From contig JAVLUZ010000162.1 of NCBI GenBank assembly GCA_036768485.1, forward strand, positions 605,845 to 669,844: 64,000 nt of DNA, in the 5' to 3' direction. Position numbers and translations under genes: made by a program. Below, piece by piece: positions 43,536 through 63,882 of the stretch (the stretch's first letter is position 1; every line of letters starts with the position of its first letter). The notes beneath the pieces were generated by a model, which saw only the letters and a program-made list of their open reading frames with translations, did no database searches and was not told the origin of the DNA. The DNA is from Mermis nigrescens. Taxonomy: Eukaryota; Nematoda; Enoplea; Mermithida; Mermithidae.

Positions 43536-43942
43536 AAATTTTTTGCTGCTCTTTAAGCATGAGCATAGAATGAGAGGATTTGCGTGGGTCACAAGCACCA
43601 CCAAAAGTGCTGTTTTTGGAGGAAAAAACTTACTGCACTTGAGGCATTTTTGTAATCAGATCATAATGATGATTATTAGCAGCATGTAAATCAAGCACCT
43701 TATCAGCCACAGGTCCTTGAAAAAAACAAAATATTATTATAATATACTTTTATTTGGTAGTCGGGCACTAGAACTTTTTGTATTTTTGCAGAGTGTGACG
43801 TGCTACTATAGTCTGCTAAATTAGGCAAATTACCATAACTCATTTTCATATACATGGATCAACCCCATATGTGGAATGTAAGAGCACCAACAAGAAAATC
43901 ATTTTTGTATTATATGTAACCTACATAGGTTTTATTTATAGT

Positions 43943-44719
43943 CTATTGGTGTCTAAAATGCAATTTTATGATAGTTTTGCCGAATTCAAAAGGTACGGGC
44001 TGATTTTGATCCGTTTTGATATTTATTTCAATTGTGTTAAATGATTTCTTCAGCACGGGTATATAGTGTGAGCTAATATATGCATGGTTTACAATATCCA
44101 TGTATTTTCCTTCAATGTTTACAACCTGCAAAAGTTGCGCAAAAACGTTTCCAACAATTTGAGGCTCAATTATATCGCAATAAACGTAAAAATTGTGCAT
44201 TCCGCCTAGCATGTCAGGAGAGTGATGGGCAGCTATGGTCACTTCTTGTGCAAGAGTATAATTTACATTTTTAAGCTGACTATCTAAAAAGCCTAACATA
44301 TACATCAAATGATTCGTTAGCTTTAAGCTTTTAATGTATGCAGTGTTAATTACTATATGACAAAATTTCTTATTTTCATTGTATTTGAACTTTAGGTACT
44401 CTGTGTATTCAAATTTTTCTTTCAAACTGACCGTTTTTAAACCATTGGTTATAGTTTGAATGAAGTCATGTATATTTAAATATCTTGCTCGAGGAATAAG
44501 CAATTTTTGTCGCACATTGTTTTTTATATCATAAAATTGTATCATATTCTGCTCCTCGGAAACATTGTGCCATGTATTTGCATAAATTATTTCTACTAAA
44601 CCAACCTCCCACTCACCATTCAATACAATTTGTCTAGGCAGATTGGTAAGAAATGTAGCCGCAGTATTGGCTTCCTGTGAATTGCTCGGAAGCGTTAAAT
44701 AGAATTGTTTAGTATCCAT
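43943..44719 (-). CDS. Polinton minor capsid (penton-like, single jelly-roll) protein
   Basis: 258 residues, uninterrupted. It begins MDTKQFYLTLPSNSQ and continues with FLTNLPRQIVLNGEWEVGLV (residues about 24-43), the conserved opening of the Polinton minor capsid family. YVYCDII near the middle and PFEFGKTIIKLHFRH at the end are family signatures. The role is the vertex capsomer of the virion, by family inference. It is preceded by a TATA-like motif 26 bp upstream. The first 36 codons reappear in copy B at 61310-61420. Confidence 0.85.
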   Translation of the reverse strand: MDTKQFYLTLPSNSQEANTAATFLTNLPRQIVLNGEWEVGLVEIIYANTWHNVSEEQNMIQFYDIKNNVRQKLLIPRARYLNIHDFIQTITNGLKTVSLKEKFEYTEYLKFKYNENKKFCHIVINTAYIKSLKLTNHLMYMLGFLDSQLKNVNYTLAQEVTIAAHHSPDMLGGMHNFYVYCDIIEPQIVGNVFAQLLQVVNIEGKYMDIVNHAYISSHYIPVLKKSFNTIEINIKTDQNQPVPFEFGKTIIKLHFRHQ

Positions 44720-44744
44720 TTTTATAATTTAAGCTTATCAAAGT

Positions 44745-44754
44745 ATTTATAAAT
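44745..44754 (-). promoter_or_regulatory. TATA-like box before the minor capsid gene
   Basis: The palindrome atttataaat lies 26-35 bp upstream of the minor capsid start codon. Equivalent motifs precede other genes of this Polinton, and the copy B fragment at 61280-61310 keeps it. Confidence 0.5.
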
Positions 44755-44762
44755 TTTTTCGC

Positions 44763-45146
44763 TCAGCATAGATAGAACAATATTTTTGAAGGGAATATCA
44801 TTACTCCTGCATAAGAGGAAGTAGATGCACATATGTCCACAACTAATGGAAAAAGCCCTTGTGTTTGGACATTATTGTATGTAAATGAAAGCGCATTATC
44901 AGAAATATAATGCTTCAATTGCACAGGTGGCTCTAAGCCATAGCTATCAAAATAGTCACAGCGTTTCTTGCTTACAAAATGCAAAGCAACCCAGTGTGAA
45001 CCAGGCTCATTGCTATTGTCCAAATTAACCACTATAGCTGCAGGATAGTTTTTTATAGGTGGTAAGCGGTCTAATGGAAAAATGCCCAAAAACATATTCA
45101 TTTTGATATTATGTTCAAGAATTTTGAATATTTCAATGGTATTCAT
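44763..45146 (-). pseudogene. Polinton adenain-type cysteine protease, copy A, frameshifted
   Basis: Starts MNTIEIFKILEHNIKMNMFL. The catalytic histidine segment PGSHWVALHF and acidic segment CDYFDSYGLEPP are present at about residues 50-75. A one-base difference in a T run near 44850, relative to copy B, moves the frame just before the catalytic cysteine segment, so the encoded tail is out of frame. The start codon lies 2 bp after the stop of the major capsid gene. Its role is maturation of capsid proteins, by homology to adenovirus protease. Either a true mutation or an assembly error. Confidence 0.82.
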
Positions 45147-45148
45147 GT

Positions 45149-46437
45149 TTAAGCACTATAGTCATGAAACGTGTTTCGATTCTTATCAATCATTACCAAA
45201 TTATCAAATTCAGCATATATAATGATTTCTACACCAGAATCAGGCAAATTATCAGCAAACCTTACATTTATGCTTGTTGTACCTTCATGAGCAAGATCCC
45301 AATGCCCCCCATCATCTGCATCGGGAGTCAAGTCGAATACAAAAAAGCAGTGACTTGTCTTAAACTCATCTCTGCTAATGAAATTACCTTCACGGCCTAT
45401 ATCGAGTGCATCATACATTTGATTATAGGCTTGCAAGTACCTATCATGTTTGAATGCAATGCCAAGTGGGTAAGCAGGGTAGGTTATACCCCCACACGTT
45501 ACTTTTGCATCATATATGCTGAAAGGTTTGAAGTTGAAAGGCGATTTTGCTAGATTGCCTCGATAAGCACTGCCTTCAACACAAGCAAATACAATACGTC
45601 TAGGTAGCTGACCAATGAACAATGTATAATTTGGCGTTTCCCTAGCAGGGTTTGATATATGCAAGTTAGTGACAGCTATGCGCCTTATAGGATATTTGGC
45701 TGTGTATGAAAGCATTGTTTGCTCTAGAGCTAAATTTACTGTGTCCAAAACCTCAACTTTTCGAATAAAAATTTCATTTGAGAGACTTTCAAATCTAAGT
45801 TAACATCTTCAAAACACTGCAAAGCAAATGCATTACTATTTCTGTGTAATTCTAAGCGAAAATGGGTAAAATTGACTAAATACCTATCTTGCAAGAACAT
45901 ATCAATATGCAGTGGAGCCGCAACTTCTAAAAATTTTCATCTTTAAACATAGCAGCTCGCTTTTTGAATGATTCACTATCTTTTGTGTCAACATTAATGC
46001 CGCCATCATGAAAATATAATGCTGCCTGTAAGTGTGAATGCTTTGCATCAAATCCATAATTTAATTCAGTTTCAAAATAAGATCTAAATGCATATTTATC
46101 GGAGCTGTCAAAAACTAAACGGCCTCCTAGAAAACATTTTACTTGCTTGAAAAAGTTTTACCAATAAGATTGATAGGTGCATAGTCAGGTACTACTGATC
46201 CTGCAGCAACTGTTGGTTTTTTAATTCTTAGTAGCATATAAATGTAATTTTTGTTCAGCTGAATATAATGAGGATCGGGAGGTATTCTAAATTCATATGG
46301 TCCCTCATTAGTTATGGGATGCGTTGGTTGTATTTCATGCCAAAAGTCGCCCTTTACTACCACTTGGGTAGGAGGGACCGTGAAAGGTCTAACTCAGTTT
46401 TAGTACTTGGAATAGATTTTACGTCTATGAGAGCCAT
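45149..46437 (-). pseudogene. Polinton major capsid protein (double jelly-roll), broken by several frameshifts
   Basis: Start at 46437 inside the pVI-like gene: MALIDVKSIP, then the family hallmark of an ELDL segment followed by VPPTQ, then GPYEFRIPPD and YIQLNKNYIYMLL. The middle (46138-45760) gives LNYGFDAKHSHLQAALYF and later DMFLQDRYLVNFTHFRL. The C-terminal third (45748-45149) is one clean frame with LPRRIVFACVEGSAY, FVFDLTPDADDGGHW and IIIYAEFDNLVMIDKNR. About 429 codons in total, fitting invertebrate Polinton capsid genes. Frame changes occur near 46415, 46140, 45940 and 45755. Either decayed or assembled with errors. Confidence 0.82.
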
Positions 46438-46834
46438 GTTTTTTAGAAAACGCATCAAGTGCATTAGCATTTATAGACTTTGGGCGACTACCAAGACCCT
46501 CTCCTTGCTGCATAGCTTGAGAAGCTTCATCAAAAAGTTGGGCAGCTTCTCGCTTTGAATGCTTTTTAGTAGACTCAAAAAGAGGTTTTCCCTGGGCCAA
46601 ATCGGATGCTATATTTGAACCTGCAACTAAAGCATGCTTTCCAACTTGCTTACCAATTGATTGAAAAACAGGGATGGCAATTCTGAATAGGGAGCGGAAA
46701 AAGTTGCCAAGACCAACGCCCCGCTGGTATGGGATGCCTTTAAACCCATCCAATCCATAACCAGTTTGGGCAGCCTGCCCTGTATAATATTCCGGCCAAA
46801 TGTTGTAATTGTCGGGAGTAAATTGAACATGCAT
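46400..46834 (-). CDS. Polinton pVI-like / minor virion protein
   Basis: 144 residues from ATG 46834; an upstream in-frame Met at 46864 is less likely because the TATA-like motif lies only just before it. The core is GVGLGNFFRSLFRIAIPVFQ, followed by GKQVGKHALVAGSNIASDLA and an REAAQ segment: an amphipathic glycine-rich helix and basic tail typical of Polinton and adintovirus small virion proteins compared to adenovirus pVI/pX. It may act in membrane disruption or core packing; this is inference. The 3' end overlaps the major capsid start by 38 bp. Uninterrupted. Confidence 0.7.
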   Translation of the reverse strand: MHVQFTPDNYNIWPEYYTGQAAQTGYGLDGFKGIPYQRGVGLGNFFRSLFRIAIPVFQSIGKQVGKHALVAGSNIASDLAQGKPLFESTKKHSKREAAQLFDEASQAMQQGEGLGSRPKSINANALDAFSKKHGSHRRKIYSKY

Positions 46835-46870
46835 TTTTGTGATTATTTCACAAAATTGAAACACACAAGG

Positions 46871-46878
46871 TATTTATA
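46871..46878 (-). promoter_or_regulatory. TATA-like box before the pVI-like gene
   Basis: TATAAATA on the minus strand, 37-44 bp upstream of the preferred start at 46834. It probably serves the overlapping pVI-like, capsid and protease genes. Confidence 0.5.
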
Positions 46879-47440
46879 GACTTTCGTCCCAGTCAAAGTC
46901 ATCACCTGCGGCAAAAATTTCCCTACCTTGTCTATTACCAATACTTGCTAGTGGGACATTTGTGCGGTTCAACATTTTCAGCAATTCCTTTGTACCAGGA
47001 TGTCTGCTTATTTTCTTATGCTCACGTGCTAAATCATTAACTAAATCTGTAATGTTTGAGCCTTCAATTTTTTGCCCATCTATAACAAGCTCACCATCAG
47101 ACTCTATTTCAATAAAAGGGTTTGTACGAATATAGTGGAGAAGCATTTTAGCCTTCGGAATTTGATTTTTGGCATAGCAGTTAGTATTTCATCATTGCTA
47201 AGTACATCTTTTGTATGTTCAATTATATTGGCTTTGTACGGTTCCTGTTTCTGTTCATGCAATCGCTTAAATTGCCAAGTATCTGATTATATTTTATAAG
47301 TTTTAAATCAGATGGTATATTTTTTGCTGTTCAACACTTTCTGCATCTCATTATCCAAGGACTTCTAGCACAACATCAATAGGTTTAGTCCGCTCACTGA
47401 TTTCAGTGGGTATAAGAATCATTTTTTCAGTATGTTTCAT
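46874..47440 (-). pseudogene. Conserved small Polinton protein with GSNI-DLV and NVP-IGN motifs, frameshifted
   Basis: The start at 47440 (MKHTEKMILIPTEISER) overlaps the stop of the preceding gene as ATGA. Two or three one-base breaks fall between about 47340 and 47150. The last 90 codons are clean: IESDGELVIDGQKIEGSNIT, then DLVNDLAREHKK and NVPLASIGN. This pattern recurs in invertebrate Polintons and in my recollection lies beside the capsid genes; its function is unknown. The start was cut off from the upstream gene by the LTR retrotransposon a few bases away. Confidence 0.65.
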
Positions 47441-47449
47441 TTTCTACCT

Positions 47450-48261
47450 TGTCACGCTAGAAAATTGCCGAACTTGATTCTTGTGTTCTTTATTATTCAA
47501 AAAAAAAACTTGATCGTTTACACAAATTTCATATATATTAAAAGACGGATATAATAAGAACTGATGAACAAAGTCGACCAAGCCAACAATCCCGTCACAA
47601 ACTCTCTCTCCATCTTTTCTCTCTCTTATTTAGCTGAGTAGATTCTTATCAATCAGGTCATGTTTGTTTGTTATTCATTTTCCATATTCCTTGTTTCTAC
47701 ATGTTCAGCTTATTAGGATCATTAGCTTGTTGTTGATGGTCTATTATGGCACTTTGATTTCAGGTAGGTATTTGCTAAAGCGGTCAGACGGTCGGGTGTG
47801 AGTAAATATTATGGCGTTTCGGTGGTCAGTATGAGTCAATATTTTGATAAATATTGGAGTTCCTTTGTAACTAGCTGCCCTTTAGCTAATTTTACATATT
47901 TTGGTCTCTTTTATGAGGTCATGTGGACATTAGATACGAATTTATTTTCCGTTTAATATTTCGTAAATGGTACTATGGAGTGCTAGGTGCGGGGGTAGCA
48001 CAACTCAGCTTATGTTCATCTTTGAGTTATCGTAATTTGGGCCAAAAGGACAACTTGGGTTGAGAGTTAATAAATTGTAAACAAGTAATAGCGCAACAAA
48101 CTTAGATAATTATTAATACATGTTACCTATGAATAAATATAGAATCGTTTTCGCGTAGTATAAGTATTTTAACGAAGAAAAGAATGTAATACGTGATCTA
48201 TTAAAATTAAGAACACAATAATCGTTTCTATCATATGATTCGATCATCACCTCGTGTGACA
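47450..48261 (-). repeat. 3' LTR
   Basis: 812 bp. Shares nearly all sequence with 57645-58477, e.g. gctagaaaattgccgaactt and cgatcatcacctcgtgtgac. On the minus strand it follows the integrase gene; the tract just before it (agtgggaccg) is only a weak polypurine tract. Confidence 0.95.
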
Positions 48262-48279
48262 CGGTCCCACTAAAAATAA

Positions 48280-49944: not shown

Positions 49945-49949
49945 AGTTT

Positions 49950-51586: not shown

Positions 51587-51666
51587 AGATGCTGAACATT
51601 TTTCTTGTATGTGAGTTAGAATTGTTTCATTAGTATCTGCCAGCTCTATGTTAATCAGTGCATACC

Positions 51667-51912
51667 CTACAATTGTATGATTTCGCCATTTGCAGCAATA
51701 GGTCGGACTTCAGTTTTATAAATCTTTAAATGGGGGATCGAATCAGCGATTGTTTTATCTAAAAGTGAGAAAACTGCTCCCGTATCTATTAGAGCTGATA
51801 CTTTTACACAATTATTCAAGATAACATTCACATGTGGGGTTCGTAATATTTTATTATTTATTGCTGAGATTGTAATCGATGCTTCTGATGAATTTTGGGT
51901 GTTTTCCGCCAT
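51667..51912 (-). CDS. Retrotransposon aspartic protease
   Basis: Starts with ATG (MAENTQNSSEASITISAINN). The active-site segment is VSALIDTGAVFSLLD. The frame stops shortly after NGEIIQL, where the neighbouring frame continues to ILGTNFLARF, so a one-base shift lies near 51675. The start overlaps the end of the envelope-like frame by 55 bp, meaning pol sits directly downstream of the envelope-like region. Confidence 0.8.
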   Translation of the reverse strand: MAENTQNSSEASITISAINNKILRTPHVNVILNNCVKVSALIDTGAVFSLLDKTIADSIPHLKIYKTEVRPIAANGEIIQL

Positions 51913-53528
51913 GACACTTTCGTACTTTTACGATTCAGGACATTTTTAGAATTTTTTAGCTTTAGTAATCTCCAAAGTGTGTTTCCTATAGGCTCAGTGG
52001 GTGCTGCTGTGGTGCAGGTGGTTGGAAGAATCGATGTGTAAACTTGATTTCTACGTTTTGTGATATAAATATAAGCAAAGTATGCAATTATGAGTGCGAC
52101 TACGCTTATTAATAGCAAGTTCATTATTAGTTGGATCGGGCCTTTTAAGAGAGCATTAAAATTAGACATAAAACTAGTCTGAGTTCCACTTATTACATGT
52201 TCTATGGCATTTCCAACTCCAATTAAGCTATTTTTTATTCCATTCCCAGCTGCAGCTAATGTGTCGTAAATAGCTCTAGGTTCTAAGGACATCTTAGCGG
52301 TATACTGTGCCAAGCGATTGAGAATTTTTTCTAAGTGTTCCGTTTTATACAAATAGTTTCGAAATGATCCAAAAGTAGGTTGACCTGCAGCCAAACGATC
52401 ATAAAAAACTGATGGTGTATCAAATTGAAAGGAAGTTTCATTTTGCTCCTAATTTAATTCCAGTGGGACATCTGATACATGCGTTATTCCTGAATTTGTG
52501 ATCCATTTATCTTTATATCGAAAAATTTCTATTTTCTTGTGAAGACAATTTATCGTTTCGGAGAAATGCACGAGATCTGAACTTCCGGGTAGTGAAAACC
52601 ATGTTTGCCCTTCATATTCCACGGGTAGGTATTTATAACACGTATCATTTATTTTATAGTCCATATAAACTCTACTTACATTTATTTGTTTACACGTCCA
52701 TATTGTTAGAGTTTCGCCTGTAAAATCAGCCGTGATGTCATTTTGACGGAAAAATGCACGCGCACCTACAGTAGGATCTAGGTATAAGAGCTGCCAAATC
52801 ACGTCTACGTGCCTTTGCAATTGTCTACACAATTCTAGCCAGATTCTACGAAATGCTTGCATTTCTCCTTGTAGCAATCTGAATTCTAAATAATTCAGTT
52901 TAAGATTCACTGGATCATAGTGTGTACTTTTATTTAATTTATTATTTCTCTGCTCGCTTCTCTGAGATAAGACAAGTTGTGTTTGCACTAAAATTCCCTG
53001 CTCTGTGCTGTATGCTCGATCAATGTCTGCACACTTCAGGTATTGTTCACGGATTGAAAACGCAGATTGTATTTCGTCTATGACTATATAAGGTAAACTT
53101 ATTTGTGCCATATATCTCCCTTTAAGTATAAATGGACAAATTTCTTTGAAAACATCGCCGTCCCATATTATCGTACTATCCGTAGTTTTACAGTTACCAT
53201 ATGTGGGCCTACAAATACTTAGGTCCCCTAAATCAGACATAAGCGTATCACTGTTCCAACTCGCGACTCTCCCTTCTTCAATCACAAAATTAGAGACTGT
53301 GGAACAGATTTGCTTACAGCACCACGAAAAATCAACATTTAATTCAAAATTCGTACTCCAAAAGCCATGCATATCTTTTTTTAGCTCAGTTCCCATATAG
53401 CTCTTTTCGTTGAATGAATTTCTGCATACCTCATATGACACAGAAAAAGTAGAAGATTGGTCTGAGATAATCCCTTTTGATCCAAAAATCCAGTGTAAGT
53501 GCAAATAGTTCGAGTTAAAATCATACAC
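51858..53528 (-). pseudogene. Envelope-like glycoprotein, ectodomain and transmembrane part, one in-frame stop
   Basis: A cysteine-rich ectodomain (SWCCKQICSTV, ICRPTYGNCKTT, IWTCKQINVS, CYKYLPVEYEGQTWF) runs to a TAG at 52449-52451. The same frame continues through a region without Cys to a membrane anchor (LIMNLLLISVVALIIAYFAY, at about 52110) and a short basic tail. Family is unresolved: the architecture fits a captured viral fusion glycoprotein. No obvious furin site plus fusion peptide of the baculovirus F type was seen. The 5' part is in the next frame upstream. Confidence 0.68.
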
Positions 53529-54571
53529 TTAATCGCCTTAGTGTTTTTTGGAGTTAAACGAGGAATATAAATCGCAACCGTCTGTTTCTCTGGTTTGGTT
53601 AAAGGCCCATCTGGAAAATAACACTGAACAGTACAGGGCAAATTTACGGGGTGTCCACTCTTACTGGATCCACAAATTTGAAACGAGCATTCAGAGATTA
53701 TTGGCAATAACATGAAGATAAATATGATGATATGAAATGCGAATCGGCTACATAAAATTCGCAACCGTGTGATTATATACGAATCATGATAAAATCTAAG
53801 TTTATCGAATAAATGCATCATATTTCGAATCATTTTCATTTCGCTTGATAAGCACGTTTTATCGCCATCGTTTCCTGTGGTTACACTCGCCTCATTCATC
53901 TTCTTCATCCGAATCTTTTGCAACAAAAGATTCGTTTTATAGTTGAAATCTGACACTTTTTTCGTCCATAGCATGAATATCCAACGAAAATTAGGGGATG
54001 TATTAATACATAAACTATTCATTCCAAAATATTCGAACGTTTTGATGATGTTCTTCGAATATTTTTGCAATTTTGGCGATACATTCTTTAAATTATTATT
54101 CACAGATTCTTTCTCCTTTCGGCTTTTCCAATTTTTTGTGACTTTATCTGTAATTAATTCTGTACTCTTACAATTAAAAAGCAGGAATAAATGATTTAAT
54201 TTTCGACGAACAACCAGATTTAGGGTATTTAACATTTTGTTTTCATCGCTGAGGGCCAGATTACAAGTGAAAACAGTACAACAGACCAATAACACGATAA
54301 TACTTGGTACGATTATAAAGATAATATGACAACAGCGTGTAGTATTTAAGGCAAAATCAATAAAACACTTGGAACAATTTTCATAATTATTTATGAATAT
54401 AAGATTTATGAATATAATCAATAAAATACGTGTGGACTTGGTGCTTTGTAATAGTTTTTTCATTATAGAATAATAAAATTGTTTTATTTTTGTATAAAAT
54501 TTGTAATTCAAATTGACAAAAATTGAAGTTTGAATAATTCTCAATATTAGCAAACTAAAAACGGAAAACAT
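53381..54571 (-). CDS. Hydrophobic ORF leading into the envelope-like region
   Basis: 396 codons. The N-terminal half has three hydrophobic segments (start; ILLIIFINLIFI; CHIIFIIVPSIIVLLVCC) and a basic linker. Near residue 290 a signal-like segment (FHIIIFIFMLLPIISECS) is followed by a cysteine-rich stretch (FQICGSSKSG, LPCTVQCYFPDGPL) that passes into the downstream envelope-like frame within the 148-bp overlap, through a frame change near GFLDQKG. The second half is probably the true N terminus of the glycoprotein; the first half is unrecognised. Confidence 0.55.
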   Translation of the reverse strand: MFSVFSLLILRIIQTSIFVNLNYKFYTKIKQFYYSIMKKLLQSTKSTRILLIIFINLIFINNYENCSKCFIDFALNTTRCCHIIFIIVPSIIVLLVCCTVFTCNLALSDENKMLNTLNLVVRRKLNHLFLLFNCKSTELITDKVTKNWKSRKEKESVNNNLKNVSPKLQKYSKNIIKTFEYFGMNSLCINTSPNFRWIFMLWTKKVSDFNYKTNLLLQKIRMKKMNEASVTTGNDGDKTCLSSEMKMIRNMMHLFDKLRFYHDSYIITRLRILCSRFAFHIIIFIFMLLPIISECSFQICGSSKSGHPVNLPCTVQCYFPDGPLTKPEKQTVAIYIPRLTPKNTKAIKCMILTRTICTYTGFLDQKGLSQTNLLLFLCHMRYAEIHSTKRAIWELS

Positions 54572-54671
54572 CAGGATAAAAATTTTCTCACCACACTGAC
54601 GCTTACGTTCCCATTTCGTAGTCCGTTTCTGTAATTCTTCCGTTGCGTCCAGCTTTCAGTGGGTTGGACGT

Positions 54672-55757
54672 CTATCCCAATTTAGCTCGTTTTTCTTGTT
54701 GTTCGCACGATTTTTCAGCCGGCTCATCTTCGAACTCCATCTTCGGTCGCTTTCGTCCGTCTAATGCCGACTGCGAAGGACGAATGCCACTGGGACGACC
54801 AAACCAATGCTCCATCGAACGCCTACGCTCTTCGCCATGAATAGGGCATCCGCTGCAGATGCACGGAGATTCGACAGGCATTTGGAAAAGTGGCTTGTTG
54901 CCAAATGTACGGCCAAATGGGGTTGCTGGAACATTCAAATCGGGAGAACTTAAATCATTCATGCCTTCCTGAATTTCGGTGACACTCATATCATGAAATT
55001 GTCGAAGTGGAAAAGCAGTAACAATAAAATAATCCGGAGTGTTTTTCTCAGAACTCTCCTTATTGCCAAAACATGCATATCTAAAAGGCATTTCAGTTAG
55101 GTCGAGATTTTCGGGGTCAAGATTAATTTCTTCGTTGGGTTCCTTGATCTTAGGGGATTCCGACTGGGCTGGACTTATGGGTTCGATTGCATCATTAGCC
55201 GTTTCATTGCCTGAGGTAGTGCTGTTTCCATTCCAGGCGGAAAAGAGACCAAAACATCCAGGTTGAAACTCGTCTTTAGACGTTTGGAACCAACGATTTT
55301 CTTCCTCTTTTCCAGTTTCTGGGGAGGATTGCAAATATATAGTATTAATATTTATATCAGTGGGTATTTCTTGGAGGAAAAATTCGTCATCAACGTCTAG
55401 AATAGGAGTAATTTCAAAACTTTTGTATGTTCCATCCTCGTTTCTATCATTACTGTTACTTGAAATGGCATGAGATACATTAGAGTTTGTTTGAAAACGC
55501 GCGTTTTTCCTTTCAGGGCCATAAACATTAGATGAAAAACTTCTAGGGGCACTCATAATACCATTTCTGTTCGAGCCGTTACTTGATCGATTATCAAATT
55601 GCATTTTACGGCTATCTTTACCACTATTTATATTCGTTCCTTTATTAAAATTATAATTTCCGTAGTTATTATTACTTCTCTGATCATAACGATTATTTGC
55701 TTGCATTTTGTTATAATTTCGTGCATTATTATTTCCACTATGATTACAATTACCCAA
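54672..55757 (-). CDS. Unknown Asn-rich/acidic retrotransposon ORF following gag
   Basis: 361 codons. The N terminus is Asn/Gly/Arg-rich (MGNCNHSGNNNARNYNKM). The middle is acidic (EPNEEINLDPENLDLTEMPF). A short Cys cluster CICSGCPIHG is near residue 305 and the tail is basic (RKRPKMEFEDEPAEKSCEQQ). No reverse transcriptase, protease or envelope motif. It overlaps gag by 130 bp in the -1 frame, after the second zinc knuckle, and may be expressed as a gag extension. No family recognised. Confidence 0.6.
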   Translation of the reverse strand: MGNCNHSGNNNARNYNKMQANNRYDQRSNNNYGNYNFNKGTNINSGKDSRKMQFDNRSSNGSNRNGIMSAPRSFSSNVYGPERKNARFQTNSNVSHAISSNSNDRNEDGTYKSFEITPILDVDDEFFLQEIPTDININTIYLQSSPETGKEEENRWFQTSKDEFQPGCFGLFSAWNGNSTTSGNETANDAIEPISPAQSESPKIKEPNEEINLDPENLDLTEMPFRYACFGNKESSEKNTPDYFIVTAFPLRQFHDMSVTEIQEGMNDLSSPDLNVPATPFGRTFGNKPLFQMPVESPCICSGCPIHGEERRRSMEHWFGRPSGIRPSQSALDGRKRPKMEFEDEPAEKSCEQQEKRAKLG

Positions 55758-56683
55758 TTTTTTTGACAGTCACGAGCATAATGTCCGAATCCACAGCAAA
55801 AATTGCATATGGCACGCCCCATTTCACAATAACGGCAATCCACTGTTAAATGATTATTACGTCCGCATACTTGACATTTTCGCGCCTCTAACGCCTCGTC
55901 CAATAACGTTTTTAAATCGCGTATACTTCTCTGCATTTCCTTTCCTGCATTACTTAAAATGGATAAGTTATTAAACGATGTATCAGGGACTACAGTATTT
56001 GTGGGGTAGTCTTGAATAGATTCGCGGAGCTGTTGTTGCTCAACATATGTTGCTTTGCTCACTGCAACAGAAAGTGTTTTAAAATCTTGATACTTTACAC
56101 CTTCATAAATTTTAGGGAGTAAACCTCTAATTAAAATTGGTTTTAATATAGTTTCTTGAAGCTTAGTGGAAAGTTGTGGATAAGCAGAACGAGCCATTCT
56201 TTTCAAACGCTCCGAAAATTCCAAAACTGTTTCATTTTTCTTTTGTCTTGCATCATAAATCAATTGTTGATATACATCAGAGTCCTTTCCTTCCGGGTAC
56301 ACTGTTCTTAAATGATCAATCAAATCATCAAAAGATGTATCTATCAATGTTTTTTGAGCGTTAGTTAAAGTGGCGAGAGCAGGACCAATCAAATTATTTT
56401 CTAAAAGAGCAATCTTATAATCAGATGGCATATTAATAGCTCCTTGTAACGTCATATATTTTTTAAATTTTTCATACCATTCTTCAAAGGATTCTCCAAA
56501 ACTGCCGGAAAAAACTTTTGGGGGACGATTTCCTATAATAGTTCCGAGACGCATAAAAGAATCTGAAAAATCATTACCACGCATTGATTCTCTTATTCCC
56601 TGCAATTCCTGAAAAATGGGTTCACCGAAACCTTCAAATGCCCTCCTCAAAGTCATTTCTAATTCCTGGGGATCTTTTGCCAT
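55628..56683 (-). CDS. gag: Retrotransposon gag with two CCHC zinc knuckles
   Basis: The capsid-like core contains FSGSFGESFEEWYEKFKKYM, MPSDYKIALLENNLIGPA and ARQKKNETVLEFSERLKRMA, typical of Ty3/gypsy gag proteins. Two knuckles follow: CQVCGRNNHLTVDC and CNFCCGFGHYARDC, both C-x2-C-x4-H-x4-C. After the second knuckle an A7 run (A-AAA-AAT heptamer near 55763) allows a -1 shift into the next ORF. The frame is open for another ~385 bp upstream of the first ATG (to about 57070) without a Met, so the true N terminus may use another start. Confidence 0.85.
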   Translation of the reverse strand: MAKDPQELEMTLRRAFEGFGEPIFQELQGIRESMRGNDFSDSFMRLGTIIGNRPPKVFSGSFGESFEEWYEKFKKYMTLQGAINMPSDYKIALLENNLIGPALATLTNAQKTLIDTSFDDLIDHLRTVYPEGKDSDVYQQLIYDARQKKNETVLEFSERLKRMARSAYPQLSTKLQETILKPILIRGLLPKIYEGVKYQDFKTLSVAVSKATYVEQQQLRESIQDYPTNTVVPDTSFNNLSILSNAGKEMQRSIRDLKTLLDEALEARKCQVCGRNNHLTVDCRYCEMGRAICNFCCGFGHYARDCQKNWVIVIIVEIIMHEIITKCKQIIVMIREVIITTEIIILIKERI

Positions 56684-57625
56684 GTTTCGCGTTACTGTTC
56701 TACCTGATTTATAAGTTAAAAAATCTTTAAAACGATCAGCTATTTCCTTGGTGAATTTTGGTGAATCACTCTTATCAATTTGCGTATTATTTATTTCACT
56801 TAGTGATAATCTCCGACTCGTAGACTGAAATGAACGTCGTATCGGAGTACTAAACTTTTGGAATTTGCTAGGCGTAACAGAAGCTGAACGAAAAATTGAT
56901 TCAAGCAGCTTTTGTTGTGCGTTAAGCGTTTCTTCAAGATTCTCAATTTGTTCCCGTGAAAGCGTATTATTTTCAGAACTTTCACTATTACTTGTTTCCT
57001 TCTCAGATAAAGACTCTAAATTTTGACCCTTTTTTGAATCAATTTTTCAATTCTTTCCGCTAACGTTTATTTCGTAATTTAATTTAACCTTAGGTTTTTC
57101 TCAAATTTACGTTCTTCAAACTATCGTGTTTCAAACACCGTTTCTCTAATTACCGTCCCTCAAAAACACTTTTTCATCCGAATGAATGAATTGCCAAGAC
57201 AGCGTTGGCCACCACTGTTCAGCTAAAATATAGGGTACCCACAAATAATAGGCCTAAAATTACGTAAAACGACATATAAGTAATTAATTAATTGTTTTAT
57301 CGTAGTTTACTCTTACTACGCTTATCCAATTAACTTTTTCCTCCTAAACCGTATTTCACCTTAAAAGGATTTATATACGGAATAATTAGTGTTACTTTAT
57401 CGTAGCTTCACTGTCCCCTTTTACAGAACTGTATCTACGCTTTATTAACACCACGCGTAAAATTCTCAGAAATTAGACTGAAAATATATTACGCCGTAAT
57501 TTCTAAACCAAATGAGGAAAACGGTTAGGGGCCGATTAAAATCGAGAAAAACCCTGAACAAATTAAATTATTAAGTTAGGTACGATTTCTCACGTTAGCC
57601 GCTCAATTTCGCCTTCTTCGTTGTT

Positions 57626-57642
57626 CCCTGGCGCGCTCGCCA
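57626..57642 (-). other. Putative primer binding site
   Basis: Immediately after the 5' LTR, with a 2-bp gap on the minus strand, comes tggcgagcgcgccaggg, which starts with the TGG expected opposite a tRNA CCA end. The matching tRNA was not determined; the start resembles sites read as tRNA-Arg in other gypsy elements. Confidence 0.55.
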
Positions 57643-57644
57643 AA

Positions 57645-58477
57645 TGTCACGCTAGAAAATTGCCGAACTTGATTCTTGTGTTCTTTATTATTCAAAAAAA
57701 AACTTGATCGTTTACACAAATTTCAAATATATATAAAAAGACGGATATAATAAGAACCGATGAACGAAGTCGACCAAGCCAACGATCCCATCACAAACTC
57801 TCTCTCCATCTTTTCTCTCTCTTATTTAGCTGAGTAGATTCTTATCAATTAAGTCATGTTTGTTTGTTTTTCATTTTCCATATTCCTTGCCATTACATAT
57901 TTTCCTTGTTTCTACATGTTCAGCTTATTAGGATCATTAGCTTGTTGTTGATGGTCTATTATGGCACTTTGATTTCAGGTAATTTGCTAAAGCGGTCAGA
58001 TGGTCAGGTGTGAGTAAATATTATGGCGTCTCAGTGGTCAGTATGAGTCAATATTTTGATAAATATTGGGGTTCCTTTGTAACTAGCTGCCCTTTAGCTA
58101 ATTTTACATATTTTGGTCTCTTTTACTTTGAGGTCATGTGGACATTAGATTCGAATTTATTTTCCGTTTAATATTTCATAAATGGTGCTATGGAGTGCTA
58201 GGTGCAGGGGTAGCACAAATCAGCTTATGCTCATCTTTGAGTTATCATAATTTAGGCCAAAAGGACAACTTGGGTTGAGAGTTGATGAATTGTAAACAAT
58301 AATAGCGCGACAAACTTAGATAATTATTAATACACGTTACCTATGAATAAGTATAGGAATCGTTTTTGCCTAGTATAAGTATTTTAACGAAGAAAAGAAT
58401 GTACATATGTGATTTATTAAAATTAAGAATACAATAATCGTCTATATCATATGATTCGATCATCACCTCGTGTGACA
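57645..58477 (-). repeat. 5' LTR
   Basis: 833 bp. Copy of 47450-48261 with an extra ccattacatattttccttg-type segment near 57890. Followed on its right by the target duplication acct and the rest of the interrupted Polinton gene. Confidence 0.95.
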
Positions 58478-58481
58478 ACCT

Positions 58482-58820
58482 GTTATTGCATCAGCTAAAA
58501 GACTGCCTGCAATTGTAAGTATCGGAGTTAACAAAAGAGGAAGAAAACCACCGTCCTGTACTATAATATTTTTTCTTTCTTTTGTACTGATTTGTTTATT
58601 ATTTGCCAGACGTCTTATTTGATTTTGATATCTCCGAAGTTTGTTTATATCTTTTTCGGAAAAAGGAATGTTACCATTTAAAAAATTGCTTGCACAGTCA
58701 CAGTGACAAAGTATTTGATCTTTACTGGCAGTATTTATAATTGACTCTCTTTGAGGTTTTCTTTGCTCGACTCAAAAGGTGTAAGCACACAATATTGCGT
58801 TTTAATCGTTCTTTACCCAT
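58482..58820 (-). pseudogene. Small Polinton protein (basic, hydrophobic tail), interrupted by the LTR retrotransposon
   Basis: ATG at 58820 overlaps the end of the ATPase by 8 bp. The start reads MGKERLKRNIVCLHLLSRAK; a one-base shift near 58760 leads to DQILCHCDC, NGNIPFSEKDINKLRRYQNQ, RRLANNKQISTKERK and the tail DGGFLPLLLTPILTIAGSLL. This K/R-rich body with a GGF-plus-hydrophobic tail is common in invertebrate Polintons; its role is unknown. The retrotransposon entered a few codons before the stop; the displaced last codons and TGA lie at 47445-47437, beyond the element. Confidence 0.72.
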
Positions 58821-59466
58821 TTTTATTGGTTACACCGTCATTATTAGTATTTATAGATTTTTTTACATAAACAGTCGGATGCTTGCTAAATATGTTTGTT
58901 TTAAGTCTTAATTCATCTCTAGCATTTTGGGTGAGATCTATCAAGAGATAGCTATATGGCTGAGAGGTAGCATCAGAATAAGCTTCTAGGAAATATTTGG
59001 AATTTGTTGGATAAAGTTGGCGAGACAAAATTTGTGACTGTAATTGATCGGCAGGGTTTTTAAATAAGACTATATAATCAGAGTTTATGCGTGAAGTTCT
59101 GAGGCCTTCAAAGAACACATTTTGAACAATGTGAATGATGCTAATATTCCAATGATGACATCTCCTTGTGAAAAGCTGTACAATTTGAACATTACCCTTG
59201 CTCTCTTGCATTAGATCATCTAATATCAAAAGTTGCGGCATTGGACTAAACTTTTTTAAATAGCTAAAATCAGGAAGCCCTTCTATAAATGAAACATCTT
59301 GCATTTCCCTATACAGCGGCTGATTTTCGGCAAAGCACCACCAAATCTTTTTAAGTTTTGTATCAATCAAGTGTGCTCTGTTTTCTAATAATTGCCTGAC
59401 AAAAGTTGTCTTGCCAGACTTTGTTGGCCCAGAAACAAGACAAGTAAAAGGGTGTTGAAAAATCAT
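58813..59466 (-). CDS. Polinton packaging ATPase (FtsK/HerA, A32-like), copy A
   Basis: 217 residues, intact. Walker A GPTKSGKTT at residues 13-21, Walker B LLILDDLM at about 80-87, then the conserved HHWNISIIHIVQNVFF. The C-terminal tail extends to NNDGVTNKNG. Role: motor that packages DNA into the capsid, by family. The start is 43 bp from the divergent TBP gene; the stop overlaps the next small gene. Nearly identical to copy B apart from a few residues and the tail. Confidence 0.88.
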   Translation of the reverse strand: MIFQHPFTCLVSGPTKSGKTTFVRQLLENRAHLIDTKLKKIWWCFAENQPLYREMQDVSFIEGLPDFSYLKKFSPMPQLLILDDLMQESKGNVQIVQLFTRRCHHWNISIIHIVQNVFFEGLRTSRINSDYIVLFKNPADQLQSQILSRQLYPTNSKYFLEAYSDATSQPYSYLLIDLTQNARDELRLKTNIFSKHPTVYVKKSINTNNDGVTNKNG

Positions 59467-59509: not shown

Positions 59510-60027
59510 ATGGTTACCTATTCAGAACATAGTGCTTACTGCAGCACTTAAAGACACACTTGATCTAGATGAGATATATGCAAAATTACCAAATACTGCA
59601 CAATATAACCCTCAGAAATTTCCAGGTATCATATATCGACCACCTCATGCTAGCATTATTGATATTCAAGTCAGGTAAAATAGTATGCGTAGGAGCTAAA
59701 AAAGTTAAAGATGGCAAAAATGCAATAAAACATTTTATAGAGTTAATAAATGCACGAGCCTGTTACCTAAAAATACAGCCTCAGCTGTTTGTAGGCTCTG
59801 CTGATTCAGGATTTTGTATAAATCTTTGCAAATTTTATGAGTTGGTTAAAAGAAAATGCATGTATGAAGTAGAACTCTTTCCTGGCTTAATATATAAATT
59901 CAGAAATGTAACGTTTTCACTCTTTACAAGCGGAAAAATGATTCTCACTGGAGCAAAAAGAGAACATGAATTGCATATAGCACATAAAATAGTTGAATCA
60001 ATGCTTGAGCAATGCCAAATTGAATGA
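59510..60027 (+). pseudogene. Polinton-encoded TATA-binding protein homologue, copy A, frameshifted
   Basis: Same gene as 62036-62551 with two one-base insertions relative to it (near 59516 and 59650), which break the first TBP repeat. From about 59650 on the frame is clean: LLIFKSGKIVCVGAKKVKDG, VELFPGLIYKFRNVTFSLF and TSGKMILTGAKREHELH. It may be decayed or affected by assembly errors. Confidence 0.85.
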
Positions 60028-60059
60028 ACTAAAGTTTCTTTCATTGCAAAAATTTTTCA

Positions 60060-60235
60060 ATTCCAGCAAGAAATTTTTCAAACTTTACAAGAAATTTTCT
60101 AATGTCTACAAATTTGCTATCCTTAAGCATACAAAATTGATTCCAAACTCTGCGAGAAATTTTTCAAACTTTACAAAAATTTTCCAAAACTTTGCAAGGA
60201 ATTTTCCGAACTTTACAAAAAATTTGCGCTTTTTA
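60060..60235. repeat. Array of ~20-bp units downstream of TBP, copy A
   Basis: Imperfect units of the form aaactttacaagaaattttc are repeated about seven times. The same kind of array lies downstream of the copy B gene. The core gaaattttc is nearly its own reverse complement. Confidence 0.75.
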
Positions 60236-60481
60236 GATGAAGAAATGTAATCATAATAAAGCTTTTTGCATAAAGATTAGCAGAATAAAATTCAGCCTTG
60301 GGGGTTAAATACTGTCATAACTTGGACAGGGTCCACACGTCGCCTTTTTCTGAGCATTTCCTAATGAAACTTGAAAAGACTAAAATAGCGTGTCAGAAAA
60401 GTAGACATTTTGCAATTTGCTTGAAGAAACAATGACCAGCCTCCATTTTTCCTGTTTCAAAATCAGATTCAAAATTACCAT

Positions 60482-60820
60482 TTATACGTTTATCAGATCA
60501 GGGACCCAAGAATCAAATTTGGGCGGGTAACCTCTCCATCGAACAAAATAATCAGTTTTGTTGCCGCGTTTTCGAGTTTTTAGAATTTTTTCGACAATGA
60601 ATAAATCTTCAGTTGAAACGTCAATTTTTTGCAGTTCTGGTTCATAGAAAATACCTTCCAATTTTTCACCCATTTGGTCTTCTAAACTATACCCTGGTGG
60701 TGTTCCAGCGTATCTCTCTAACGATATAAAATTCTTCAGTCCAATTGGGCCAGTATCCTTTTTCAAAAGTGCGCTTAACTTTACTCAACCTTACTTTATC
60801 GCCAACATCAAATCTAAATT
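60482..60820 (-). pseudogene. Polinton integrase C-terminal fragment with chromodomain, copy A
   Basis: It keeps the linker (KVRLSKVKRTFEKGYW in one frame), then GEKLEGIFYEPELQKIDV and a chromodomain (FIVEKILKTRKRGNK, YFVRWRGYPPKFDSWVP). The upstream catalytic core is missing: the sequence switches near 60817-60820 to an inverted capsid-gene tail. One further frame change lies between the linker and the chromodomain. A decapitated duplicate of the copy B integrase. Confidence 0.82.
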
Positions 60821-60878
60821 TGATAATTTAATAATGATCGATAAAAATCGAAACACATTTCATGACTATAGTGCATAA
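60817..60878 (+). pseudogene. Major capsid protein tail fragment (copy B, inverted)
   Basis: The last ~19 codons of the capsid gene (MIDKNRNTFHDYSA then stop), on the plus strand, directly before the protease start as in copy A. It is joined to the integrase fragment with a few bases of shared sequence (aaat). Confidence 0.85.
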
Positions 60879-60880
60879 AC

Positions 60881-61282
60881 ATGAATACTATGGATGTATT
60901 TAAAATTCTTGAACGTAATATCAAAATGGATATGTTTTTGGGCGTTTTTCCATTAGACCGCTTACCACCTATAAAAAACTATCCTGCAGCTATAGTGGTT
61001 GATTTGGATGCTAGCAATGAGCCTGGTTCACACTGGGTTGCTTTGTATTTTGTAAGCAAGAAACGCTGTGACTATTTTGATAGCTACGGCTTAGAGCCAC
61101 CTGTGCAATTGAAGCATTATATTTCTGATAATGCGCTTTCATTTACATACAATAATGTCCAAACACAAGGGCTTTTTTCCATAAGTTGTGGACATATGTG
61201 CATCTACTTCCTCTTATGCAGGAGTAATGATATTCCTTTCAAAAAATATTGTTATATCTATGCTGAGCGAAAAAATTTATAA
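60881..61282 (+). CDS. Polinton adenain-type cysteine protease, copy B
   Basis: 133 residues, uninterrupted. MNTMDVFKILERNIKMDMFL; histidine segment PGSHWVALYF; acidic segment CDYFDSYGLEPP; cysteine segment SCGHMCIYFLL. The triad order His-Asp-Cys matches adenovirus protease. The tail is shorter than in adenoviruses. Inverted relative to the other Polinton genes. Confidence 0.85.
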   Translation: MNTMDVFKILERNIKMDMFLGVFPLDRLPPIKNYPAAIVVDLDASNEPGSHWVALYFVSKKRCDYFDSYGLEPPVQLKHYISDNALSFTYNNVQTQGLFSISCGHMCIYFLLCRSNDIPFKKYCYIYAERKNL

Positions 61283-61309
61283 ATACTTTGATAAGCTTAA
61301 ATTATAAAA

Positions 61310-61420
61310 ATGGATACTAAACAATTCTATTTAAGGCTTCCGAGCAATTCACAGGAAGCCAATACTGCGGCTACATTTGTAACTGGCCTGCCAAGGCAAA
61401 TTATATTATCTGGCGATTAA
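61310..61420 (+). pseudogene. Minor capsid protein 5' fragment (copy B)
   Basis: The first 34-36 codons only (MDTKQFYLRLPSNSQEANTA and LPRQIILSGD). Then the sequence changes into the 3' end of the opposing ATPase gene, giving an early stop. It marks the second rearrangement junction. Confidence 0.85.
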
Positions 61421-61991
61421 TTGTTTTAAGTATTAATTCATCTCTAGCATTTTGGGTGAGATCTATCAAGAGATAGCCATGTGGCTGAGAGGTAGCATCA
61501 GAATAAGCTTCCAGGAAATATTTGGAATTTGTTGGATAAAGTTGGCGAGACAAAATTTGTGACTGTAATTGATCGGCAGGGTTTTTAAATAAGACTATAT
61601 AATCAGAGTTTATGCGTGAAGTTCTGAGGCCTTCAAAGAACACATTTGGAACAATGTGAATGATGCTAATATTCCAATGATGACATCTCCTTGTGAAAAG
61701 CTGTACAATTTGAACATTACCCTTGCTCTCTTGCATTAGATCATCTAATATCAAAAGTTGCGGCATTGTACTAAACTTTTTTAAATAACTAAAATCAGGA
61801 AGCCCTCCTATAAATGAAACATCCTGCATTTCCCTATACAGCGGCTGATTTTCGGCAAAGCACCACCAAATCTTTTTAATTTTTGTATCAAACAAGTGTG
61901 CTCTGTTTTCTAATAATTGCTTGACAAAAGTTGTCTTGCCAGACCTTGTTGGCCCAGAAACAAGGCAAGTAAAAGGGTGTTGAAAAATCAT
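61401..61991 (-). CDS. Polinton packaging ATPase, copy B, C terminus replaced
   Basis: 196 residues. Walker A GPTRSGKTT and Walker B LLILDDLM intact. Collinear with copy A up to NARDEL, then diverges (ILKTINRQII) because of the junction near 61415-61425, losing about 20 residues of the tail. The ATPase core is complete, so activity may be retained. Confidence 0.85.
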   Translation of the reverse strand: MIFQHPFTCLVSGPTRSGKTTFVKQLLENRAHLFDTKIKKIWWCFAENQPLYREMQDVSFIGGLPDFSYLKKFSTMPQLLILDDLMQESKGNVQIVQLFTRRCHHWNISIIHIVPNVFFEGLRTSRINSDYIVLFKNPADQLQSQILSRQLYPTNSKYFLEAYSDATSQPHGYLLIDLTQNARDELILKTINRQII

Positions 61992-62035: not shown

Positions 62036-62551
62036 ATGGTTACTATTCAGAACATAGTGCTTACTGCAGCACTTAAAGACACACTTGATCTAGATGAGAT
62101 ATATGCAAAATTACCAAATACTGCACAATATAACCCTCAGAAATTTCCAGGTATCATATATCGACCACCTCATGCTACATTATTGATATTCAAGTCAGGT
62201 AAAATAGTATGCGTAGGAGCTAAAAAAGTTAAAGATGGCGAAAATGCAATAAAACATTTTATAGAGCTAATAAATGCACAAGCCTGTTACCTAAAAATAC
62301 AGCCTCAGCTGTTTGTAGGCTCTGCTGATTTAGTATTTCGCATAAATCTTTGCAAATTCTATGAGTTGGTTGAAAGAAAATGTACATATGAAGTGGAACT
62401 GTTTCCTGGGCTAATATACAAATTCAGAAATGTAACGTTTTTACTGTTTACAAGTGGAAAAATGATTCTCACGGGTGCAAAAAGAGAGCACGAGCTACAT
62501 ATAGCTTACAAAATAATTGAAACAATGCTTCAACAATGCCGCATCGACTGA
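62036..62551 (+). CDS. Polinton-encoded TATA-binding protein (TBP) homologue, copy B, intact
   Basis: 171 residues, the size of the TBP core alone. Two direct repeats: residues 4-80 (IQNIVLTAALKDTLDLDEIY, YNPQKFPGIIYRPPHATLLI, FKSGKIVCVGAK) and about 88-168 (FVGSADLVFRINL, YEVELFPGLIYKFRNVTFLL, FTSGKMILTGAK). The four phenylalanines that kink DNA in cellular TBP are conserved at F37, F52, F123 and F138, as is the E-x-E-L TFIIB-contact stirrup (119-122). There is no long N-terminal extension. It sits between the packaging ATPase and the integrase of the Polinton in both copies, so it is part of the element. Likely role: directing transcription from the element's own TATA-like promoters, or competing with host TBP. 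Confidence 0.93.
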   Translation: MVTIQNIVLTAALKDTLDLDEIYAKLPNTAQYNPQKFPGIIYRPPHATLLIFKSGKIVCVGAKKVKDGENAIKHFIELINAQACYLKIQPQLFVGSADLVFRINLCKFYELVERKCTYEVELFPGLIYKFRNVTFLLFTSGKMILTGAKREHELHIAYKIIETMLQQCRID

Positions 62552-62554
62552 GTA

Positions 62555-62760
62555 ATTTTGCAAGAAATTTTCTAAAGTCTGCAGGAAATTTTCCAAACTC
62601 TGCAAGAAAATTTCCAAATTCTGCAAACTTCCTATGCTTAAGCATGTAGAAATTTTGTCAAACTTTACAAGAAATTTTCTAAACTTTACAAGAAATTTTC
62701 TAAAGTCTGCAAGAAATTTCCCAAACTATGCAAAAAAGTTTCAAAACTTTGCAAAATAAA
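62555..62760. repeat. Array of ~20-bp units downstream of TBP, copy B
   Basis: Eight or more imperfect units such as tgcaagaaattttctaaagt and tttacaagaaattttctaaa. Lies between the converging ends of the TBP and integrase genes, as in copy A. Confidence 0.8.
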
Positions 62761-62821
62761 ACTGAGTCTTGTGTGCATATTTGTCTTTTTGTAAGCATTT
62801 CCCCAGCTAAAATAGCGCTCA

Positions 62822-63882
62822 CTATACGTTTATCAGATCAGGGACCCAAGAATCAAATTTGGGCGGGTAACCTCTCCATCGAACAAAATAATCATTTTTG
62901 TTGCCACGTTTTCGAGTTTTTAGAACCTTTTTCAACAATGAATAAATCATCTGTCAGAACATTGATTTTTTTCAATTCTGGTTCGTAGAAAATACCTTCA
63001 AATTTTTCGCCCTTTTGGTCTTCTAAAATATAAACTGGTGGGGTTCTAGTGTACCTCTCTTTAATAATAAAAAATTCTTCGGTCCGATTTGGCCAATATC
63101 CTTTTTCAAAAGTGCGCTTAACTTTACTCAACCTTACTTTATCGCCAACATCAAATCTAAATACTGTATCTTTTTTTGTAATGTGAAAGGCTTTATTTAA
63201 AATTTCTTGCTCATTTTTTGATGATACGTTCGCCGGAAACGATACCTATAGTTCTATGCATCAAATGATTATAATTATACATAAGATTGTCTAAGACATC
63301 AATATACCTGTATGTATTCTTTTTAGTAAAGTAGCGCCACATCTTTTCTTTTAACGTTCGATTAAATCGCTCTACTACCCATGCTTTCATTTCACTTTTA
63401 GTAACAAAAAAGTCGACAGATTCAGATTTCAAAAATTTCTGAAATTCCTTGTTCACGAATTCTTTTCCTGCATCAGTCTGCAATTTATATGGTTTGCGCT
63501 TTGACAGTGCAAAAATATGCTTAAAAGCCTCAGCAATATCATTAGAATACTTGCTTTTCAAGGGTAAAGACCATGCACACTTTGAGAAAATGTCTATACA
63601 GTTCAATAGGTACTTGTAGCCATCATTCTGCTTAGCTAGTGATTGAAGATCAACCAAATCAGCTTGCCACTGCTCATCAATGCTGCTCACTAGAACCCTA
63701 TTCCGTGAATATTTTCTTAATGCAGGTTTGTGTAAGGTATAAGTAGGCTGTTTTTCTAACCACGCTTTTACATCTTTAAATTTTGCTTTAGGGCGCAGCT
63801 TTTTTACACGAGTGTAAAGCTGAGCAGCACTAGTATACCCGGTTTTTGGGTTATAATACAATTTTTTCAATGTTTTATCCAT
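62822..63882 (-). pseudogene. Polinton integrase (DDE, chromodomain), copy B, two frameshifts
   Basis: 63882-63211 is a clean frame: MDKTLKKLYYNPKTGYTSAA, QWQADLVDLQ (first D), LQTDAGKEF (second D) and KAWVVERFNRTLKEKMW (E). The frame breaks at an A run just after SGERIIKK near 63211, continues as the linker VKRTFEKGYWPN and GIFYEPELKKINV, and breaks again near 62930 inside the chromodomain. The last codons (ending INV) lie at 62822. The catalytic triad is intact. It inserts the element DNA into host DNA. Confidence 0.88.

Follow-up and report, generated by a model that had tools for sequence, protein, structure and literature searches.

Evidence for a TATA-binding protein gene carried by Polinton-type elements in the genome of Mermis nigrescens

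Promoters in eukaryotes and archaea are marked by the TATA-binding protein (TBP), and to our knowledge no Polinton has been described with such a gene. Several DNA viruses do have one. TBP is encoded by a megavirus (PMC11464507) and by mirusviruses (PMC10132985, PMC12768974), and herpesviruses have TBP-like proteins for late genes (EBV BcRF1, MHV-68 ORF24 and CMV UL87; PMC4893493). TBPs are also reported from Cymbomonas in elements with no identified double-jelly-roll capsid gene (PMC10675990); the available main text of a history of double-jelly-roll viruses has neither TATA nor TBP (PMC11071308), and the available part of an account of cryptophyte Polinton-like viruses has no TATA-binding protein (PMC12220804). 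Titles and abstract openings in the open literature on Polinton, Maverick and adintovirus, a scope outside which most subscription papers lie, hold no report of a Polinton-encoded TBP. The elements described here resemble Polinton/Maverick elements, such as Polinton 1 of Caenorhabditis briggsae, in their DNA_pol_B_2 polymerase, rve-type integrase, adenain-type protease and, probably, A32-like ATPase, and differ from them in bearing a TBP gene and TATAAATA before many genes. They resemble the Nucleocytoviricota and mirusviruses in that a DNA virus there encodes a TBP, although those viruses are much larger than these elements. Herpesvirus BcRF1 is only distantly TBP-like, whereas the element protein is an unmodified TBP in which most residues are the canonical ones; if the mechanism proposed below holds, the element would work as the herpesvirus does, pairing a viral TBP with a viral promoter box (TATT in the herpesvirus, TATAAATA in the element).

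The TBP frame lies in a 64,000-nucleotide stretch, here called the window, which belongs to the genome that was searched (G000; 523,963,438 bases in 860 contigs). Table 1 lists its features. The window holds rearranged Polinton remnants interrupted by an LTR retrotransposon, and no intact element. The initial annotation had placed the TBP frame between packaging ATPase and integrase genes and described it as duplicated with them. The placement stands: an ATPase frame and an integrase frame, both on the minus strand, flank the intact TBP, with 44 bp between the start codons of ATPase and TBP. The duplication stands for the ATPase-TBP block (present twice, 92% DNA identity) and for the C-terminal piece of the integrase (twice, 90%), the upstream TBP being broken by frameshifts. 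Protease and putative capsid genes are inverted at 43943-47188, and the retrotransposon, at about 47.5-58.5 kb, separates this inverted part from the TBP blocks. The only trace of a polymerase in the window is short, a remnant that matches the N-terminal polymerase frame of locus L029 at residues 213-261.

Some further features of the window may be recorded here. The retrotransposon (47531-58510) is of the Ty3 type, and its frame 52449-53528 (-) matches Monjiviricetes_fusion (PF24664, 8.4e-16), an envelope-like gene of the kind seen in negative-strand RNA viruses. Repeats with a 21-bp period (AAACTTTACAAGAAATTTTCT type) lie directly 3' of both TBP copies, at 60039-60240 and 62533-62776. Pfam gives a weak Moulting_cycle match (2.3e-5), which would suit a nematode host, and an Rfam search found no match anywhere in the window.

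Table 1. Annotated features of the window, in order of position (position 1 is the first base of the 64,000-nucleotide stretch)
Feature	Coordinates	Strand	Basis or remark
Polymerase N-terminal remnant, two pieces	43639..43786	-	tblastn 1.3e-19, 90% and 95% identity
Putative minor-capsid-like protein (mCP)	43943..44719	-	258-aa frame; 35-38% homologues beside divergent TBPs L041, L042, L044
Protease frame, inverted copy	44763..45146	-	repeated in inverted form at 60814-61245 (94% and 97%)
Putative major-capsid region, several frames	45149..46393	-	same order at many element copies (tblastn)
Small conserved element protein, pX-like	46400..46864	-	TATAAATA in 12/13 distinct homologue upstreams
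Conserved element frame c46874, start codon guessed	46874..47188	-	recurs at inspected element places
Small conserved element frame adjoining ATPase	58463..58771	-	recurs at inspected element places
Second ATPase frame	58813..59466	-	Pox_A32 9e-5, below cut-off
Second TBP copy, frameshift-broken	59510..60027	+	PF00352 8.1e-28 on frame 59569-60027
Second integrase C-terminal piece, frames broken	60482..60827	-	90% identical to copy at about 62823-63162
Adenain-type cysteine protease frame	60881..61282	+	Peptidase_C5 0.0051, below cut-off
mCP-like gene start, cut off where second ATPase begins	61310..61400	+	TATAAATA at 61278-61285
Packaging-ATPase-type frame, divergent with intact TBP	61401..61991	-	Pox_A32 1.4e-4, below cut-off
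TATAAATA box, ATPase/TBP intergenic, 40 bp 5' of TBP start codon	61996..62003	+	sequence
Predicted element-encoded TBP (P0001)	62036..62551	+	intact frame, 171 aa plus stop
Integrase C-terminal piece, chromo-like by eye	62892..63245	-	tblastn matches beside integrase at most of 28 places
Integrase core (rve) frame	63211..63882	-	PF00665 5.2e-11, above cut-off

By its profile and predicted model, the 171-residue frame (P0001) is a true TBP. Its best Pfam profile is TBP (PF00352; E 8.8e-45, 150.9 bits against a curated cut-off of 22.9), in two stretches, with both tandem repeats above the curated cut-off and no better match to a non-TBP family. A PDB search gives 35 distinct sequences with solved structures at E <= 0.001 (best 1.2e-31), 34 of them named TBP or TFIID and the remaining one, 4wzs_D, named only as ECU04_1440 protein. 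The AlphaFold2 model, built from an alignment of 8 sequences, is confident and has two strand/helix repeats (pLDDT 92.0, pTM 0.80). As the initial annotation had read from the frame, F37, F52, F123 and F138, which we take to be the intercalating phenylalanines, and the stirrup E119-x-E121-L122, presumably the residues that contact TFIIB in cellular TBP, all occur in it and line up with the corresponding residues of 25 eukaryotic TBPs. P0001 shares with cellular TBP its family, the four Phe and E-x-E-L, and differs in its identity (at most 43% among the matches listed), in the absence of an N-terminal extension and of introns, and in a substitution common to its own family.

That substitution emerges from an alignment in which ElA denotes the P0001 family (10 rows) and ElB the divergent TBPs described below (10 of 126 used). 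The four Phe are all kept in 10/10 ElA rows, and F stands at the four positions in 10, 10, 10 and 9 of the 10 ElB rows. Residue 122, in the stirrup, is L in 10/10 ElA rows and L or I in 10/10 ElB and 22/25 eukaryotic rows, whereas its equivalent is Q in all 17 archaeal and all 9 IMG/VR rows. An Asn in both repeats, which we take to sit at the TATA dyad and to be typical of the family, is kept in repeat 1 of 10/10 ElA rows; in repeat 2 (residue 92 of P0001) these rows all have L or M, against N in 68/68 other aligned rows. Judged by alignment, the loss in ElA is a deviation inside the TBP family, whose profile these proteins match, and it may point to an altered specificity or to weaker TATA binding. 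Among the rows listed, helix H2 has 2-4 K/R in four ElA TBPs, compared with 6-7 in the host TBP and in two further ones from eukaryotes.

With P0001 as the query, 150 of 2119 candidates in the genome were scored, in an order that favours intact copies; all 150 encode TBP, at 72-100% identity, and 10 have internal stops. Twenty-eight of these places were inspected (8 returned loci plus 20 chosen across identity bands). At 28/28 the TBP has an A32-like ATPase, in pieces in some copies, no more than 2 kb away, and at 27 an integrase is near it. The gene order is ATPase-TBP-INT at 23 places and ATPase-INT-TBP, with a divergent integrase (36%), at four (L010, L011, L013, L015); at L014 the ATPase and TBP are present and no integrase was found. 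Chance linkage is excluded because the TBP adjoins an ATPase at every place inspected. Contamination or an assembly artefact might be suspected in an assembly of 860 contigs, in which two locus pairs (L004/L005 and L006/L007) share 3513 bp at 100% identity although the members sit on different contigs; we give this almost no weight, as copies occur on many contigs, one of 48.8 Mb, with graded divergence. The identical pairs may be haplotype duplicates or recent copies.

The copies are also under constraint, with purifying selection on the TBP. The median dN/dS of the TBP is 0.154 over the 280 of 300 pairs with dS 0.05-2, in a sample of 25 different sequences; these represent 28 of 29 TBPs found at the 28 loci (one of the two L025 TBPs was omitted); the maximum, 0.95, belongs to the pair L001-L009, and L009 is visibly frame-shifted. 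A uniform count gives medians of 0.065 for the ATPase (57 pairs), 0.147 for the TBP (302 pairs) and 0.126 for the integrase (24 pairs). The initial claim that the TBP travels with the element is borne out by this constraint and the linkage to ATPase and integrase, together with the profile and the predicted fold, and the same evidence supports the view that a Polinton-type element encodes it.

Other genes of the elements were compared with those expected of Polintons. The ATPase frames score 21.5-22.5 bits against Pox_A32, just below the cut-off of 22.8 (Pfam). The one beside the intact TBP has 332 relatives in the protein database (the best 79% identical among the best 120 of 332), and many of those among the matches listed bear a Pox_A32 domain. 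The retroviral-type integrase (rve) characteristic of Polintons is found, with element matches of 5.2e-11 and 3.2e-14 (Pfam); its C-terminal piece in the window gives no Pfam family at 0.05. An adenovirus-type protease is found as well, since the homologue at L032:350-766 matches Peptidase_C5 above cut-off (2.9e-5, 24.3 bits against 21.3). The candidate capsid frames have no capsid match in Pfam; the labels minor-capsid-like (mCP) and pX-like in Table 1 are presumptive.

DNA_pol_B_2 (PF03175), which we take to be the protein-primed type of family-B polymerase, matches the genome at up to 1.6e-32 and matches 0/14 control genomes. The scan gave 168 matches from 80 scored of 1062 candidates, and 80 places were taken from the matches listed. 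Seventeen of them have one of the 276 scored TBPs within 20 kb, where about 1.7 would be expected; the 17 include near-copies, so that the number of independent events is smaller. Each of these TBPs lies on the same strand, 9.7-16.5 kb downstream. No scored TBP occurs within that distance of the remaining 63 places, but as most TBP candidates were unscored, some of the 63 may have one. All 17 linked TBPs are divergent ones and none is from the P0001 list, which counts against the overall reading offered below. For the P0001 family and its nearest relatives the link is a different one, a polymerase N-terminal frame that adjoins the integrase at nine loci that were fetched (L009, L012, L018, L019, L022, L025, L027, L029, L030). 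The PF03175 polymerases of L141 and L142 match this frame at 28-52% identity, and they match inner parts in L010, L011, L015 and L034 too. At L029, which forms the outer part of copy L008, the frame is only 264 aa long, and PolB fragments beside elements have no Pfam match. On these comparisons, the family-B DNA polymerase of Polinton/Maverick elements is present.

A beetle TBP query on the same genome (128 matches scored of 1688 candidates) distinguishes the host gene from further element-type copies. The host-type TBP stands apart as a gene on contig C73 that is split by intron, two of its exons having 88% and 78% identity to beetle TBP. A further 126 TBP frames are intronless, with 34-45% identity to beetle TBP; none is common to the P0001 list, and 16 have internal stops. 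Ten of these divergent TBPs were fetched with 1 kb on either side. An mCP homologue lies near three and the start of an integrase near one (tblastn); by eye, homologues of the small membrane-type frame of the elements stand beside two (L045, L047), and a polymerase-like frame without a Pfam match beside one (L048). L046 has an extra TBP piece nearby, 61% identical to P0001, and the element-gene queries recognised none within 1 kb at L039 and L043. The integrase gene found near the TBP at 27/28 places, in two orders, might suggest that the TBP guides integration, tethering the integrase to promoters that bear TATA or serve Pol III, much as TFIIIB guides Ty3 integration; TBP-INT adjacency, however, is not conserved, and divergent TBPs lie beside mCP (3/10) or other genes, so that we find this role improbable.

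F-box-type frames occur near divergent TBPs at L043:1-1104 (-) (PF12937, 1.1e-8) and, by eye, at L046:1416-2513 (+) and L040:1919-2251 (+), those in L043 and L046 being head to head with the TBP. A cysteine-rich small frame of secreted or membrane type, also recognised by eye, is found in several element families (L045:42-392, L047:1905-2246, L032:1583-2035).

The origin of these proteins was approached with a TBP tree of 78 rows. Its eukaryotic rows are 25 from the best 120 of 5215 profile matches, and it is without nematode TBP and TBP-related factors; 63 of 80 archaeal loci, three of 12 IMG/VR loci (L050, L056, L059) and P0004 were left out, as were a further 13 rows (long branches or near-duplicates) for topology tests. 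The 10 ElA rows and six divergent rows form one clade (96/93). The other four divergent rows (L039, L041, L042, L044) form their own (100/100), apart from it in the best trees. Host TBP groups with eight arthropod TBPs (98/95), a placement that, in the absence of nematode rows, suits a nematode host as well as an arthropod one, and P0001 falls outside the animal TBPs. A clade of element TBPs with host TBP is rejected (p 0.0166), as is one of ElA with host and arthropod TBPs (p 0.0036); a clade of all element TBPs with host and arthropods is borderline (p 0.0587), and the data are compatible with a single clade of all element TBPs (p 0.347). These tests reject recent capture of the host TBP for the full set when grouped with the host and for ElA when grouped with host plus arthropods, and the element TBPs stand apart from the host gene in a phylogeny of the kind the initial annotation had proposed, with host and viral TBPs. 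Given the split in the best trees, two origins of the element TBPs are possible, in a tree that long branches limit. We read the element TBP as an old eukaryote-type TBP and no recent copy of the host gene, because of these tests and because its stirrup residue is L or I as in eukaryotes, in contrast to the Q of archaeal and IMG/VR rows.

These results bear on the idea that the frames are processed copies of host TBP mRNA that lie near Polintons by accident. The non-host TBP frames are indeed intronless, as such copies would be, but an ATPase is the neighbour at 28/28 places, the divergent frames have only 34-45% identity to beetle TBP where the host exons have 88% and 78%, a clade with host TBP is rejected, and the TBP is under purifying selection. 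Such an accident is scarcely credible.

Among 5.8 billion proteins in the database, P0001 has 7 direct matches and 5215 profile matches, and no relative more than 43% identical occurs among the 7 and the best 120 of the 5215. Viral contigs searched with P0001, the ATPase, the integrase and queries A2 and A3 gave no match; query A5 found 12 TBP loci there (IMG/VR, L049-L060). Seven of the nine IMG/VR rows used group with archaeal rows (branch not starred), and these viral TBPs differ from the element TBPs at the stirrup residue, as noted above.

Element genes are often preceded by TATAAATA. The box lies within 60 bp 5' of the start codon, mostly at about 30-46 bp, in 38 of 55 representative upstreams, whereas 1000 first-order Markov resamples gave 1.83 on average and never more than 7; the representatives are partly dependent, as ATPase and TBP share one intergenic region and the ungapped comparison leaves near-duplicates. 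By gene, counting distinct upstreams, it is found before TBP (14/15), pX (12/13), PolB (8/9), orf113 (7/10), mCP (3/4), orf150 (1/1), INT (7/15) and ATPase (6/14). Its absence from the other eight integrase and eight ATPase upstreams counts against a general association, as does its absence before the protease (0/4) and c46874 (0/5, start codon guessed). The box occurs 0.24 times per kb at positions 1-42000 of the window, 0.46 times in the retrotransposon, 0.88 times in the element parts of the window and 1.32 times in L009-L028. Only three of 10 divergent TBP upstreams have the box (L041, L042, L044). The other seven, which also count against it, have TATATAAGG (L045, L048), TATAAATT (L043, L046) or neither (L039, L040, L047). 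In L045 and L048 a neighbouring frame bears TATAAATA, and we speculate that the TBP there possibly has an early promoter read by the host. Moreover, TATAAATA is an ordinary strong TATA box and could serve host TBP too, which counts against a private pairing.

Taken together, these observations show that Polinton-type elements in this genome encode their own TBP as a regular gene, present in high copy number and linked to A32-like ATPase, integrase, protease and family-B polymerase genes. We think it probable that this TBP is a promoter-recognition factor with matching boxes, whose expression and binding we infer. The element TBP would bind the TATAAATA boxes before element genes, its conserved E-x-E-L stirrup would recruit host TFIIB, and host RNA polymerase II would thereby be brought to the element genes, the promoter-recognition step passing under the element's own control. 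The closest working precedent is herpesvirus BcRF1 with its TATT late promoters (PMC4893493). A dominant competitor would work differently: the element TBP would occupy host TFIIB, TFIIA or promoters and shut down or redirect host transcription, with element genes left to host TBP acting at ordinary TATA boxes. The retained TFIIB stirrup, the reduced K/R count of helix H2 (2-4 against 6-7), which could alter contacts with regulators, and the generic nature of TATAAATA would all suit this, but the concentration of TATAAATA before element gene starts suggests a partner in cis and the four Phe are kept in all ElA rows, and we regard competition as unlikely. A more ambitious form of the reading in which the TBP serves the element's own promoters is that Polintons of animals, in an old and large radiation, have a private promoter system, made up of TBPs that split early from eukaryotic TBP and of TATAAATA-type boxes before many element genes; in the main clade, where all 10 rows lack the repeat-2 Asn, specificity for DNA would be shifted, and host regulators would have poor control of the TBP that reads element genes. 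This we put forward tentatively, believing it somewhat more apt to fail than to hold.

If the proposal is correct, these elements, with a TBP under selection, hundreds of scored copies and a paired box, would offer a small, testable model of a mobile element that controls its own transcription. They would be the equivalent, among transposons, of the TBP-like factors that herpesviruses and giant viruses have, and the element TBPs may bear on the source of viral TBPs.
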